Shown here: piece after piece, positions 1,065 through 37,738 of the stretch
Position numbering within the stretch: the stretch's first letter is position 1
Layout of the letters: the number at the start of each line of letters is the position of its first letter
Assembly (NCBI GenBank): GCA_947170005.1
Contig: CAMVRX010000002.1
Span: 1-43,208 of the forward strand
Direction of reading: 5' to 3'
DNA from: an uncultured Elusimicrobium sp.
GTDB lineage: Bacteria > Elusimicrobiota > Elusimicrobia > Elusimicrobiales > Elusimicrobiaceae
Length of the DNA stretch: 43,208 nucleotides
Made by a program: the position numbers and the translations under genes
Notes under the pieces: generated by a model
Seen by the model: only the letters and a program-made list of their open reading frames with translations
Database searches by the model: none
What the model was told of the DNA's origin: nothing

Positions 1065-1346
1065 GTTCTTTCTCCTTTATCGTCAGGTTTACACCTAACT
1101 ATATTTTCAATTTACCCGCTTATGAAACCCAAATAAAACGGCTCTTTTACTTGGGACATTCAGTACGCTCAAGCAAAACAGCCGTAGCTTATCACAACGT
1201 GATAAACACTCGGCACAAGAACGTGGGCTCATGACTTCCCGAGTTCTTGCGCCTCAAACAGCCGTTTTTGGTACTGAATGTGCTGCCAAAGCAGCGGTTC
1301 GTTTTGCAACGATTCCAAAAACAGATAAAATTGTATCTATAGTATA
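1065..1346 (-). ncRNA. Structured pilin leader element, copy E1
   Basis: Minus strand reads TATACTATAGATACAATTTTATCTGTTTTTGGAATCG...; long-range stem 1156-1166/1271-1281 (ACATTCAGTAC/GTACTGAATGT); GGCGCAAGAAC/GTTCTTGTGCC stem; hairpin TTATCACgttGTGATAA; AGCCGTTTT. Confidence 0.75.
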
Positions 1347-9296: not shown

Positions 9297-9560
9297 TATA
9301 CTATAGGTACAATTTCATCTGTTTTTGGAACCGTTTAAGAAACGGAGCGCTCATACAAGGGCACAATAGAAGTCCAAAGATAGCCGATTAGGTACAAAAT
9401 GACCGGAATAATTACCCGTTTGTTTTGTACCGAGTGTTTGTCGTCTAGCGATGAACCGCGGCTGGTATGTCTTGGGTTACTTCTATTGGCTCGGGCGTAG
9501 TAGCCGTTTTTGTTGGGTTTCATGAGCAGGGAATTGAACTGAATTAAAAGGAGAAAGAAC
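9297..9560 (+). ncRNA. Structured pilin leader element, copy E2
   Basis: TATACTATAGGTACAATTTCATCTGTTTTTGGAACCGTTTAAGAAACGG; stem 9364-9373/9479-9488 (CAATAGAAGT/ACTTCTATTG); GGTACAAAA/TTTTGTACC; AGCCGTTTT. Confidence 0.75.
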
Positions 9561-10058
9561 ATGAAACTCAATGTAAAACGGGGCTTTACGTTAATAGAGC
9601 TCTTAGTAGTAGTGTTAATCATTGGTATATTGGCGGCGGTAGCCGTTCCGCAATACCAAAAAGCGGTGGAAAAAGCCCGCACCCGCGAGGCGGTACTCGT
9701 ATTAAACAGTATGCAAAAAGCCTGGGCGTTGTGTTGGCTGCAGCATGGTACAGGAACGGATGAGTGCGGCAGGGGTGAGACAGGACTATTTTCCCGAATG
9801 GATATAGAGACGCCCGGTACGTTAGTAGAAGATGATTATTGTGAAAACGCGACAGGTTGCTACCTTACCAAGGACTGGGCCTATGACTTTGATGGCGGAG
9901 GCCTAAGCGCATATCGGGTTGTTGACCCGGAAGATGTAAGCAAAGTCCCTTATGCGCTTGTCGTGGGTGGCCCAGGAGATGTAGTGCGCTGTGGAACATA
10001 TGAAGACGAGGCAGCTTGTGACAAAATCTGCGGTTCCGATGGGTGTACTGTACAATAG
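9561..10058 (+). CDS. Type IV pilin-like protein (pilin 2)
   Basis: [18 protein letters not shown]...; identical to pilin 1 over the N-terminal ~55 aa. Confidence 0.9.
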   Translation: MKLNVKRGFTLIELLVVVLIIGILAAVAVPQYQKAVEKARTREAVLVLNSMQKAWALCWLQHGTGTDECGRGETGLFSRMDIETPGTLVEDDYCENATGCYLTKDWAYDFDGGGLSAYRVVDPEDVSKVPYALVVGGPGDVVRCGTYEDEAACDKICGSDGCTVQ

Positions 10059-12025: not shown

Positions 12026-12132
12026 ACTTATATGGTAATAAGATTAGGGGGGAAAAACGAGGGTCTTTGGGCCCAAAAGCGCCTAGGCCTTTGGTACTAT
12101 AAGTTTATCTTGCTAATAAAGGTGTTTTTTAT

Positions 12133-12420
12133 TATACTATAGATACAATTTTATCTGTTTTTGGAACCGTTTAGGAAACGGAGAGCTCGTAAGAGCACTA
12201 ATTCACTCCAAAGGCAGCCAAATTAGGTACAAGGCAAACGGACTAATTACCCGGTTGTTTTGTGCCGAACGTTTCTCGCGCAAGCGGGAGATTACGGCTG
12301 TTGTAGTTGGGTGAGTGAATTAGGCTCGACTGTTACAGCCGTTTTTGCATGGTTCCGGGACGGGTGGATTGTAAATAAAACGTAGGTCAGGTGTAAATCT
12401 GACATAGTGAGGAGAAAAAA
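12133..12420 (+). ncRNA. Structured pilin leader element, copy E3
   Basis: TATACTATAGATACAATTTTATCTGTTTTTGGAACCGTTTAGGAAACGG; stem 12198-12208/12313-12323 (CTAATTCACTC/GAGTGAATTAG); GGTACAA 12226-12232/TTGTGCC 12260-12266; ACGGCTG 12294-12300; ACAGCCGT 12335-12342; GGTTCC. Confidence 0.8.
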
Positions 12421-12891
12421 ATGGAAACAAAAAATACCCGGCGGGGTTTTACGCTTATTGAGTTGTTAGTAGTGGTACTGATTATTGGTATCTTAGCGGC
12501 GGTAGCTGTGCCGCAATACCAAAAAGCAGTGGAAAAAAGCCATCGGGCGGAGGCAGTCGTTTTGTTGAACGCCATTTATAAAGGGTACCAGTTGTGTGTA
12601 CTCCAGTATGGGGAAGATGCAGAAGAATGTGGACATACAGAGTTAATTGAGAATATGGATATCGGTTTTCCAGTGGAACGTGCAGAAGAATGTGATATGA
12701 ATGTATGTTATGAAACGGATTACTGGATTTTTGATTCCGATGACAATCAATCTTGGTGGGCTGAACACCGCAAAAATCCTTCCTATATAATAGAGTTGGA
12801 TTTACTTAATGGGAAGGTGACTTGTGGTGAAAACGGATATCAAAACTCTTGCAATGCGGTTTGCGGGGCGGATGGATGTGAATTAAATTAA
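12421..12891 (+). CDS. Type IV pilin-like protein (pilin 3)
   Basis: [42 protein letters not shown]. Confidence 0.9.
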   Translation: METKNTRRGFTLIELLVVVLIIGILAAVAVPQYQKAVEKSHRAEAVVLLNAIYKGYQLCVLQYGEDAEECGHTELIENMDIGFPVERAEECDMNVCYETDYWIFDSDDNQSWWAEHRKNPSYIIELDLLNGKVTCGENGYQNSCNAVCGADGCELN

Positions 12892-16548: not shown

Positions 16549-17313
16549 TTAATCGTCGTTTTCATCATAGATGCTAAAATCTGTCCAGTCCCCTTGTGCA
16601 GCTAAAGACCGACAAATGGACTTGCCGAAGTCTGTGTTTCCCCAGCAGGCGCCGCTTGGGTGTGGTTCTATGATTCTATAATCATAGAATAATTGGTATT
16701 GCTGATTATTATTATCCTCATCATAATCTCCTGTACAAGTCCCACTGCAACGATCTACGATAACACCTGTAGCATCATCAAAGTTATAAAGAAAGTACTT
16801 AGTAAAGTAGTATTCTCCGATCCATGTTCCACCGCTTAAATCCGTTGTCCAATTTTCATGGTTGGTCCAATTTGAGGCGTCATCTGTTCCTTTTTCCAAC
16901 GCACTCAAATCTACATTTTTTTGAATCGTACTGATATTCATTAGAACTTCAGCCAAGCGGCTTTTCTCCACCGCTTTTTGGTATTGCGGTACGGCCACCG
17001 CCGCCAGGATACCAATGATCAGTACCACGACTAAAAGCTCAATAAGCGTAAAGCCGTGTGTCGTTTTCCTCGCCCCTGGAGGGAGAGGATGCCCGATAGG
17101 GCAGGTGAGGGGGGAGCCGTTGTAGGTCAGGCACTGCCTAACAATGTTCCGATAGGAATATCCGGTTGTTTGTTGCTGTTGACTAGCGTCCTTTTCCGCA
17201 AGGTAAGATATGCTGCAATTGGGAAGATGCCCCTTAGCCGGGGCATTGTCAGGCAATGCCTGACCTACCCGATTGATTTGCGTATGTCCCCGCCGGGTGT
17301 TTGTTGTTTCCAT
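16549..17313 (-). CDS. Type IV pilin-like protein (pilin 4) with ~87 aa expanded leader
   Basis: METTNTRRG then an inserted segment, then [34 protein letters not shown]. Confidence 0.8.
   Translation of the reverse strand: METTNTRRGHTQINRVGQALPDNAPAKGHLPNCSISYLAEKDASQQQQTTGYSYRNIVRQCLTYNGSPLTCPIGHPLPPGARKTTHGFTLIELLVVVLIIGILAAVAVPQYQKAVEKSRLAEVLMNISTIQKNVDLSALEKGTDDASNWTNHENWTTDLSGGTWIGEYYFTKYFLYNFDDATGVIVDRCSGTCTGDYDEDNNNQQYQLFYDYRIIEPHPSGACWGNTDFGKSICRSLAAQGDWTDFSIYDENDD
17122..17268. repeat. Palindromic-repeat insertion inside the pilin 4 leader
   Basis: 17122-17146 gtaggtcaggcactgcctaacaatg and 17244-17268 cattgtcaggcaatgcctgacctac are inverted copies; each half is itself near-palindromic. 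Confidence 0.8.
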
Positions 17314-17590
17314 GTTTTTCTCCTTTTTGGTTTATGTACAATTCACCCGTTCCGGAACCATGCAAAAACGGCTATTACCGTTTTGAGTAATGAACGCACC
17401 CAATACGCAACAGCCGTGTCTTATCATTCCTGATAAGCGCTCGGCACAAAATAACAAGCTCATGACTTCTTGTTATTTTATGCCTTAAACGACTGTTCTT
17501 GGCGTTCATTACTCTTTTAGTTCCCTAAAAGTGCACTACATACTTCTTATGTAGTTCCAAAAACAGATAAAAATTGTACCTACATTATAG
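17314..17590 (-). ncRNA. Structured pilin leader element, copy E4
   Basis: Minus strand TATAATGTAGGTACAATTTTTATCTGTTTTTGGAAC; 13-bp stem 17385-17397/17502-17514; GGCATAAAATAACAAG/CTTGTTATTTTGTGCC; CTTATCAggaaTGATAAG. Confidence 0.8.
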
Positions 17591-20760: not shown

Positions 20761-21285
20761 TTAATACACACTTTCCTCTTTTGTCCATCCTTGGCTTGAT
20801 AAAAGATTGCAAACATAATTGCCGATATCGGTGAAATGCGTATAGCATGATTTTTCTTCTGTGCCATTAGCATAGTGCGTAACATTCAAAGCGTATAGAT
20901 AATCGGTATCCTCACGGGCGCCTTGGTAGCGGTACAGGGTTACTCCATAATAACTGTCTGTTATGGCAGAGGAATAGTCAAAATATTTTGAATAAATAAG
21001 TGTCTCACCTTCATTGGTGGGATCCTCTTCCATAGTAACTCCTGTAATTTCTACATTGGCAATGTCTTGGTACTCTACATGGCTAACGTATCCGTTGGCA
21101 AGAACGTAGGCTTCCATTTCTCGCATCATAACCGGGATATTAACCAAGGCTTCAGTTAATCTCGATTTTTCCACGGCTTTTTGGTATTGCGGCACGGCTA
21201 CGGCGGCCAAAATACCGATAATTAAGACAACAACCAACAACTCAATGAGCGTAAACCCCCGCCGGGTGTTTTCTTTTGATTTCAT
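20761..21285 (-). CDS. Type IV pilin-like protein (pilin 5)
   Basis: [42 protein letters not shown]. Confidence 0.9.
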   Translation of the reverse strand: MKSKENTRRGFTLIELLVVVLIIGILAAVAVPQYQKAVEKSRLTEALVNIPVMMREMEAYVLANGYVSHVEYQDIANVEITGVTMEEDPTNEGETLIYSKYFDYSSAITDSYYGVTLYRYQGAREDTDYLYALNVTHYANGTEEKSCYTHFTDIGNYVCNLLSSQGWTKEESVY

Positions 21286-21565
21286 AAGCGTTTCTCCTTA
21301 ATTTTTGCCTGCTTATGAAACCCATAGAAAACGGCTCCTACAATGGGGACTCTAGCACGGGCCCACACCATAACAGCCGTAGCCTACCGTTTCTGCAAGC
21401 AGTAACGGTAAACATTGGGTACAGCATAGACGGTTTGCAACGGCCGTATATGTTGTACCTCAATCGGCTGCCTTTGGAGTGCTAGAGTATGGACCTTTGC
21501 CATCCCCCGTATTCTTCATACGGTTCCAAAAACAGAGCAAATTTTTATACTTCCTTTTTATTGTA
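21286..21565 (-). ncRNA. Structured pilin leader element, copy E5
   Basis: Stem 21349-21358/21479-21488 (ACTCTAGCAC/GTGCTAGAGT); GGTACAACATATACGG/CCGTCTATGCTGTACC; GGAACC/GGTTTC; AGCCGTTTT. Confidence 0.75.
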
Positions 21566-27546: not shown

Positions 27547-27819
27547 TATACTATCAGTACAATTTAATCTGTTTTTGGAACTGTACATTCGGTGTACGGT
27601 ACGCTTTTAGGAAACTAAAAGAGTAAAGCAATGCCAAAGACAGTCGTTTAAGGCATAAGATGGCGGACCTTCGAAACCCGCTGTCTTGTGCCGAGTGCTT
27701 ATTTACGTAAGCCACGGCTGTTGCGCGGTTGAGTGTATTGCTTTACTCAGGCGGTAATAGCCGTTTTTGCATGGTTCCGGGGCGGGTGAATTGAAAATTA
27801 AACCGTAAGGAGAACAAAA
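27547..27819 (+). ncRNA. Structured pilin leader element, copy E6
   Basis: TATACTATCAGTACAATTTAATCTGTTTTTGGAAC; 12-bp stem 27621-27632/27737-27748 (GAGTAAAGCAAT/ATTGCTTTACTC); GGCATAAGA/TCTTGTGCC; AGCCGTTTTTGCATGGTTCC. Confidence 0.8.
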
Positions 27820-28365
27820 ATGACATACAAAAACACCCGGCGGGGTTTTACGCTCATTGAGTTGTTAGTGGTTGTACTTATTATCGGTATTTTGGCGGCG
27901 GTAGCCGTTCCGCAATACCAAAAAGCCGTGGAAAAAGCGCGCACCGCGGAAGCAGTTTCCGTCATGGCTAGCATAATGCAAGCTATGGACGTATGGGTGC
28001 TTGAAAATGGTTACCCAGCAACAGGTAAAGCAGTCCAATTTTTTGGAAATGGAAACGTGACAAAGGGGGAACTGCTAGTCGACCTTGAAAGTGCGCTAGG
28101 ATGTACTTGGGGAGAAGGAGGCTGTGCTAGTAAATTTTTTACTTATTCAGCAGTATGCAGCAACGGTGGTTGTACTATTTCGGCTTCCCGGCAGATTAAC
28201 GGTAGTGAAATTTATTACCTGGACATGTTTAAAGACACAATCGGAACTTTGAAAAAACGGTGTTGGATGTCTCCGGATGAGCGCACGGCTCCTTGTTGTA
28301 GTTTGGCAGCGCAAGGTTGGATCGCTATGGATTCGGATGAAGGGGCGCCAATGGAGGGATGCTGA
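27820..28365 (+). CDS. Type IV pilin-like protein (pilin 6)
   Basis: [41 protein letters not shown]. Confidence 0.9.
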
Positions 28366-36950: not shown

Positions 36951-37472
36951 CTAAAAAACCCAGTAATTTTCTCCTTCCGGTTTTTGACCTCCGTATTTTA
37001 GGGCATCTTGTGTGGTATCATACAATACTCCACGGGGGGTCGAATCAAATGCATTTCCATTATACACAGCGATCATGGAGCCAGCATTATCGTACAATTC
37101 ATAGTTACAACAATTTCCTGTACGCCCTTCATCCGGAGCATCCAAACAATCATTGATATAAATATCCCAGTAGTTAGTATAGATATGCGCTCCGTCCTGC
37201 GAAATTGTCTCAAAACTAATGTCTAGGTCGTTTATGTTGCGTGTGCCACAATCATTATGAGAAAGGGCGTATACATCTTGCGCATCGGACAGGGCCTTTA
37301 TCAATGTTTTGGCTTCAGCCATTCGGCTTTTATTGACGGCTTTTTGGTACTGTGGCACGGCTACGGCTGCCAAAATACCAATAATCAGCACCACCACCAA
37401 AAGCTCTATTAAAGTAAAGCCTTTGGGAAGACAACTTTGCGTGAAACCCCGCCGGGTATTTCTCGTTTTCAT
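36951..37472 (-). CDS. Type IV pilin-like protein (pilin 7) with extended leader
   Basis: [50 protein letters not shown]. Confidence 0.88.
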   Translation of the reverse strand: MKTRNTRRGFTQSCLPKGFTLIELLVVVLIIGILAAVAVPQYQKAVNKSRMAEAKTLIKALSDAQDVYALSHNDCGTRNINDLDISFETISQDGAHIYTNYWDIYINDCLDAPDEGRTGNCCNYELYDNAGSMIAVYNGNAFDSTPRGVLYDTTQDALKYGGQKPEGENYWVF

Positions 37473-37738
37473 GTGTGTTCTCCTTATTTTTTATTGACCT
37501 GTTAAGGAACAATAAAACGGCTACAATATGCCAAGCCTTATCGCAGTCTTGTCACAAAATAGCCGTAATATCGCACGAAACGATACATTCGGCAAAAAAC
37601 ACGCTGGGAGCAACCCCTTTGTATTTTTTGCCTTAATGGGCCATTTTTGGACGCGATAAGGATCTGCTTGCGCAAACACTCCGTTTCTTAAACGGTTCCA
37701 AAAACAGAATCAAATTGTGGTCCTACATTTTCTATTCT
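37473..37738 (-). ncRNA. Structured pilin leader element, copy E7
   Basis: Minus strand TAGAATAGAAAATGTAGGACCACAATTTGATTCTGTTTTTGGAACCGTTTAAGAAACGG; stem 37536-37544/37653-37661 (CCTTATCGC/GCGATAAGG); GGCAAAAAA/TTTTTTGCC; AGCCGTTTT. Confidence 0.75.

Follow-up and report, generated by a model that had tools for sequence, protein, structure and literature searches.

The stretch of DNA analyzed here, positions 1 to 43,208 of the forward strand of contig CAMVRX010000002.1 from an uncultured Elusimicrobium sp. (GCA_947170005.1; hereafter the window), carries seven copies of a leader RNA of about 240 nucleotides (nt), in each of which a long-range helix, P4, is perfectly paired. Selection for the base pairing of P4 is established. 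A preliminary description, made from the letters of the window, had proposed as much from seven pairs of complementary strands; all seven lie where it placed them and are perfectly complementary. Pairing is present in all seven copies, as claimed, but seven is an undercount: the genome as a whole holds at least 91 copies, 7 of them in the window. Going beyond that description, we found that the RNA containing the stem is the leader of prepilin genes, present in about 100 copies, that P4 crosses a terminator-like hairpin, that competing helices accompany it, and that the apical loop of hairpin P5 is palindromic. Our preference, by a narrow degree, is to see the leader as a switch that acts by transcription attenuation.

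Conservation of the P4 helix

Copies were collected in two ways. A pattern of 14 bases taken from the leader's 5′ end, with up to one mismatch allowed, was searched in the window's own genome (1.07 Mb, 73% complete) and gave 63 matches, compared with 1 for the reversed pattern that served as a control. Parsing succeeded for 61 of these; the other two are L030, which is truncated at a contig end, and L050, a chance match. A covariance model of the part from strand B to strand D (Table 1), with the P4 pair left out, found at least 91 copies in the same genome, a lower bound given that 150 of 567 candidates were scored. With 79 copies from relatives, found by the same model, these form a set of 170. 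A wider set of 226 copies draws on the own genome and its genus, together with one more genus from the family and one more family from the phylum.

In all 61 parsed pattern matches, the P4 strands of one leader form a perfect Watson–Crick helix of 6–13 base pairs (bp), 9.87 on average. When strands were instead taken from different copies of this set (3660 pairings), the mean was 4.30 bp, and 17 pairings reached 8 bp or more. The model-based copies behave alike, with a mean of 9.93 bp and a minimum of 6 in the own genome (cross pairings 4.28) and a mean of 9.91 bp and a minimum of 7 in the relatives (cross pairings 4.24), and P4 is paired in 170 of 170. Mean lengths were 9.5 bp in 30 further copies from the family and 10.1 bp in 26 copies from a distant family (f10). 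In related genomes, we looked for loss of the stem without compensation, and P4 was kept almost throughout the 226 copies. The exceptions are four copies, all from the last two groups to be added, in which it is down to 4–6 bp (L252, L240, L257, and L261); L252 and L240 look degraded.

That pairing is kept despite differing sequence, as the preliminary description had it, holds well outside the window: all 91 own-genome copies are paired, with 91 different P4 sequences. Covariation was computed with average product correction (APC) from the 170 copies, over 32131 column pairs and without an assumed structure. P4 columns came out at ranks 2, 7, 8, 11, 13, 19, 20, 27, and 41, bearing out the inference of selected pairing. 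Their mean entropy is 1.79 of 2 bits, near the maximum, yet they are top-ranked in covariation. The number of paralogs makes this signal unusually strong and directly readable. The other strands of the leader, unlike P4, are nearly identical among copies; each of the approximately 100 leaders has its own version of P4 because pairing is needed and a particular sequence is not.

Such diversity might itself be selected, with P4 acting as a private identity tag that keeps about 100 co-expressed leaders from pairing with one another. The 91 different sequences, and own pairing far above cross pairing, are what a tag would produce. However, cross-complementarity equals that of shuffled P4 sequences (3.58 vs. 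3.53 bp; 44 vs. 48 cases of at least 7 bp), with no avoidance. P4 also varies just as much among relatives that have few copies, and it is identical between leaders of different species that are likely orthologs (e.g., L079, L083, and L164). We consider a tag distinctly improbable, and the privacy of P4 may be a side effect of required pairing in a helix whose sequence is free.

Fold of the leader

Covariation shows a fold composed of P1 (strands A and B, around hairpins P2 and P3), P4, P5, P6, and a long hairpin of strands C and D, which continues inward as P7 and after which comes a U-run. P5, P6, and C–D are backed by both RNAalifold and covariation, with double changes in 30 of 35 predicted pairs. 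Several further covarying pairs lengthen C–D in register (columns 162–166 with 189–193), and of these 162–193 has rank 9. For A–B, columns 18 and 67 have rank 60, and a compensated variant joins A CTATATTTGA to B TCAAATATAG in L159 and L261. The C–D hairpin with a T-run is seen in nearly all copies, and every scored copy has at least five T within 9 nt after D; we infer that C–D and the U-run would terminate transcription. The 3′ strand of P4 is the apical loop of C–D, in which it leaves a few bases unpaired, and its 5′ strand adjoins B on the 5′ side. Consequently, P4 is a pseudoknot if C–D forms and nested if B–C forms.

A repeated element whose P5 is a near-perfect DNA palindrome could act as DNA, for example as a mobile element, a recombination cassette, or a hairpin site, and its high copy number would agree with this. 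G–U pairs, however, are in wide use across the predicted pairs, and the element is placed strand-specifically, just 5′ of a gene's ribosome-binding site. We give a DNA-level element almost no credence.

L088 and L091, both from relatives, carry after D a sequence (GTTTCCTCC) that complements the ribosome-binding region (GGAGGAAAC), which makes a second control, at the level of translation, possible.

Probable alternative helices and a candidate switch

To judge whether B exchanges partners, Fisher's test was applied to the base counts of column pairs for A–B, B–C, and, as an unpaired control, A–C. The B–C column pair held 193 CG, 17 TG, 14 TA, and 1 CA (p = 6e-13; covariation rank 94). With the same B column, the A–B pair held 193 GC, 21 GT, 9 AT, and 0 AC (p = 4e-9), and the A–C control was much weaker (p = 0.001). 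For most of the changed copies, the nearest neighbor holds the unchanged bases, which speaks for repeated changes. A–B and B–C are probably alternative, mutually exclusive helices, as judged from this one informative column.

Mutually exclusive conserved helices, here seen at a single informative column, are a mark of attenuators and riboswitches. Another is a 5′ leader between promoter and start codon, a position suggested by the open reading frame, its ribosome-binding site, and, in the reference copy, a promoter-like site. We regard it as slightly better than an even chance that the leader is a cis-acting switch that works by transcription attenuation, its alternative B–C helix being anchored by P4. 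State 1, A–B with C–D, would be the terminator and would halt transcription. State 2 would be the antiterminator, in which P4 is continued by CCAAA/UUUGG and AACAGCCG/CGGCUGUU and the mRNA passes. P4 would serve as toehold and anchor, holding C beside B in the same molecule so that C can displace A. The choice between the folds might be biased by dimerization of like leaders through their P5 loops, or by a ligand or protein. In a nested energy model that leaves out the P4 pseudoknot, state 1 is favored over state 2 by an average of 5.2 kcal/mol, set against roughly 60 to 100; for RNAs so stable, the gap is modest.

Alternatively, A–B, C–D, and P4 may coexist in a static pseudoknotted receptor, in which P4, as a loop pseudoknot, locks the 5′ domain to C–D and a ligand or protein binds, as in a riboswitch, with no exchange of B and C. 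Each of the three helices covaries independently, the nested minimum-energy fold is A–B plus C–D, and the few unpaired C–D loop bases beside P4 are reminiscent of known kissing loops. A static fold does not predict that the B column covaries with C, and the most invariant bases, by entropy, sit in the pairing strands A, C, and D. On balance, a purely static receptor seems to us rather unlikely.

Several points nevertheless weigh against the attenuation switch. Its evidence is one informative B column, because C is otherwise nearly invariant, and state 1 and P4 together might form one static pseudoknot, in which case the B–C correlation would be a residue of ancestry. The U-run in the own genome is often just 4–5 U. 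C–D went unreported in a generic terminator scan, because its loop exceeds the scanner's limit of 8. Finally, strand E, 3′ of D, is complementary to A, yet gives no APC covariation signal. A closure of the 5′ and 3′ ends by A and E (CAATTT/AAATTG) looks appealing by eye and is compensated in L113, L120, and L130 but, lacking that signal, is left as a proposal outside Table 1.

Palindromic loop of P5

Palindromes were counted in apical-loop bases only, with the loops of P2, P3, and P6 as controls. The P5 loop holds a palindrome of at least 4 bases in 213 of 226 copies (null mean 88, maximum 105) and of at least 6 bases in 153 (null 13, maximum 24). Counting each of the 54 distinct P5 loops once, 28 hold 6-base palindromes (null 2.7). 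The control loops were at the null level. About 20 different palindromes occur, including TAATTA, TCATGA, TTATAA, TTCGAA, TTGCAA, CTGCAG, CTCGAG, and CTATAG.

A self-complementary apical loop is the hallmark of the dimerization initiation site (DIS) of human immunodeficiency virus 1 (HIV-1), whose loop has a 2+6+1 layout. P5, too, has a short palindrome at the tip of a hairpin, and often a 9-nt loop with a 6-nt palindrome in the same 2+6+1 layout (ACTAATTAC). This analogy suggests that like leaders can dimerize through P5. The DIS is a palindromic kissing loop (PMC7357161); P5 differs from it in belonging to a bacterial mRNA leader and in having about 20 different palindromes, and its dimerization is predicted from sequence. 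In bacteria, the guanidine-II riboswitch has two ACGR loops that kiss (PMC7357161). It resembles the leader in being a bacterial leader with self-complementary loops, but its two hairpins are short and carry a 2-nt palindrome in a fixed ACGR loop. The leader described here is a far larger RNA that has one such hairpin, with palindromes of 4–8 nt in many different sequences.

It is conceivable, although we think it unlikely, that the leader senses its own kind: pairing of P5 between transcripts of the same class would shift the balance between A–B/C–D and P4 plus B–C and so set pilin expression. If true, a feedback specific to a class of leaders and carried by RNA alone would limit or coordinate the choice of the pilin variant made, out of about 100. 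Functional RNA oligomers are rarely observed in nature (PMC7357161), and the self-complementarity of P5 raises the question of homodimerization of bacterial leaders as a form of regulation.

Relation to known leader RNAs

No Rfam 15 family matched the window at the gathering threshold, and the models of the T-box leader and of the cyclic di-GMP-I (GEMM) riboswitch had no match in it. When positions 12,100–12,430 were searched with E up to 10, just two chance-level matches of 13–14 bits appeared. In the open-licence literature, we found no account of such a leader in Elusimicrobiota. We class the leader as a new family within a kind already known, that of leader RNAs in which helices compete. 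Two traits are unusual, namely a helix that must pair but is free in sequence in about 100 paralogs, and a palindromic loop.

The closest comparison is with riboswitches and attenuators that terminate transcription, such as the ZTP/pfl riboswitch, in which a pseudoknot-containing aptamer and a terminator compete. Like these, the leader has a 5′ position, competing helices, a terminator-like last hairpin with a U-run, and a pseudoknot beside the switch strand. It differs in having no Rfam match, no recognized conserved unpaired ligand pocket, about 100 copies in one genome, the free-sequence helix, the palindromic P5 loop, and pilin and surface genes as targets. In other phyla, cyclic di-GMP (GEMM) riboswitches serve as leader RNAs of pilin genes; the leader shares this position, but it differs in architecture and lacks an Rfam match. 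What emerges is a large, lineage-specific family of structured RNA that is absent from Rfam and reaches about 100 copies in single genomes of approximately 1–1.7 Mb, its expansion linked to a no less striking one of pilin genes.

Distribution and downstream genes

Conserved blocks align among the copies. Within the genus, the covariance model was run on 37 members, the own genome included, and matched 33. In the other family of the order, just one genome gave a match, a weak one. A phylum-wide sample added matches in a sister genus (g12) and in family f10, and most of its other genomes had no model match. A weak match in G046 (E = 7e-4) was taken as chance. Copy-rich genomes include G149 (at least 129), G073 (50), G109 (45), and G145 of family f10 (21). 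Matching records that bear a name belong to uncultured Elusimicrobium and Elusimicrobiaceae, chiefly from the guts of ruminants and other herbivores.

Some leaders share parts. L043 and L058 have identical 3′ leader parts and downstream gene starts and differ in their P3–P6 cores, and L001 and L025 have P5–P6 in common with a different P4. These pairs suggest that leaders exchange parts as mosaics.

The window copies lie directly 5′ of genes whose products hold the prepilin motif (Table 1). Every leader with enough downstream sequence is followed, 34–110 nt after D, by the start codon of a prepilin open reading frame. Such a frame comes next in 82 of the 89 own-genome leaders scored, and the rest include leaders cut by contig ends. 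The own genome has 146 N_methyl (PF07963) matches in 1.07 Mb, an extreme number of prepilin-like genes; the 2009 genome paper on E. minutum reportedly also described many pilin genes.

For the relatives, other genes come next in 41 of 79 leaders. Examined by eye, these encode small secreted or lipoprotein-like proteins, glycosyltransferases, and DNA-modification-like proteins. Together with pilins, they are typical clients of processive antitermination, in which nascent RNA (as with EAR/LoaP or put RNA), or an RfaH-like regulon mark, modifies RNA polymerase to read through accessory surface operons. Many targets, however, look like lone pilin genes, the leader ends in a terminator-like hairpin, and Rfam has no match, which leaves this mechanism improbable in our estimation.

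Table 1. Positions in the window of the reference leader, its strands, and the other six leader copies
Feature	Position	Strand	Basis
Reference leader (the copy singled out in the preliminary description), to prepilin start codon	12154-12420	+	alignment, fold, gene position
Promoter-like -10 hexamer TATACT; first hexamer TTGCTA at 12110	12133-12138	+	consensus match only
Strand A TCTGTTTTTGGAA, pairs with B (P1)	12154-12166	+	covariation
P4 5′ strand CTAATTCACTC	12198-12208	+	complementarity, covariation
Strand B CCAAAGGCAGCCA, pairs with A or C	12208-12220	+	covariation
P5 apical-loop palindrome TAATTA	12244-12249	+	loop palindrome test
Strand C ACGGCTGTT, pairs with D or B	12294-12302	+	covariation
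P4 3′ strand GAGTGAATTAG, C–D apical loop	12313-12323	+	complementarity, covariation
Strand D, then U-run AGCCGTTTTT	12337-12345	+	covariation, T count
Prepilin-like gene, N_methyl PF07963	12421-12891	+	domain match
Leader copy 1; P5 TCATGA 1229-1234; gene 570-1064	1065-1325	-	
Copy 1 P4, 5′ strand; 3′ strand	1271-1281; 1156-1166	-	
Leader copy 2; P5 TAATTA 9409-9414; gene 9561-10058	9318-9560	+	
Copy 2 P4, 5′ strand; 3′ strand	9364-9373; 9479-9488	+	
Leader copy 4; P5 TCATGA 17460-17465; gene 16549-17313	17314-17567	-	
Copy 4 P4, 5′ strand; 3′ strand	17502-17514; 17385-17397	-	
Leader copy 5; P5 TTGCAA 21435-21440; gene 20761-21285	21286-21536	-	
Copy 5 P4, 5′ strand; 3′ strand	21479-21488; 21349-21358	-	
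Leader copy 6; P5 TTCGAA 27670-27675; gene 27820-28365	27568-27819	+	
Copy 6 P4, 5′ strand; 3′ strand	27621-27632; 27737-27748	+	
Leader copy 7; P5 loop TTGCTC 37608-37613, no palindrome (exception); gene 36951-37472	37473-37708	-	
Copy 7 P4, 5′ strand; 3′ strand	37653-37661; 37536-37544	-	

Three leaders from different families (L090, L233, and L278) precede genes that start with DEFYTQL.DIE... and, by eye, resemble DNA modification methylases. Between the prepilin start and FTLIELL, in-frame insertions of up to about 80 residues occur in the window gene at 16549-17313 and in many prepilin genes of the own genome (e.g., L013, L040, L047, and L059). They hold recurring peptides, for example VGQALPDNAPAKGHL and NTPSP..PLPPGAR, and look like palindromic repeat elements within the coding sequence. 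A small palindromic repeat, GTAGGTCAGG..CCTGAC, is found at positions 12382, 17122, and 17259 of the window, in the 3′ part of one leader as well as inside a prepilin gene.
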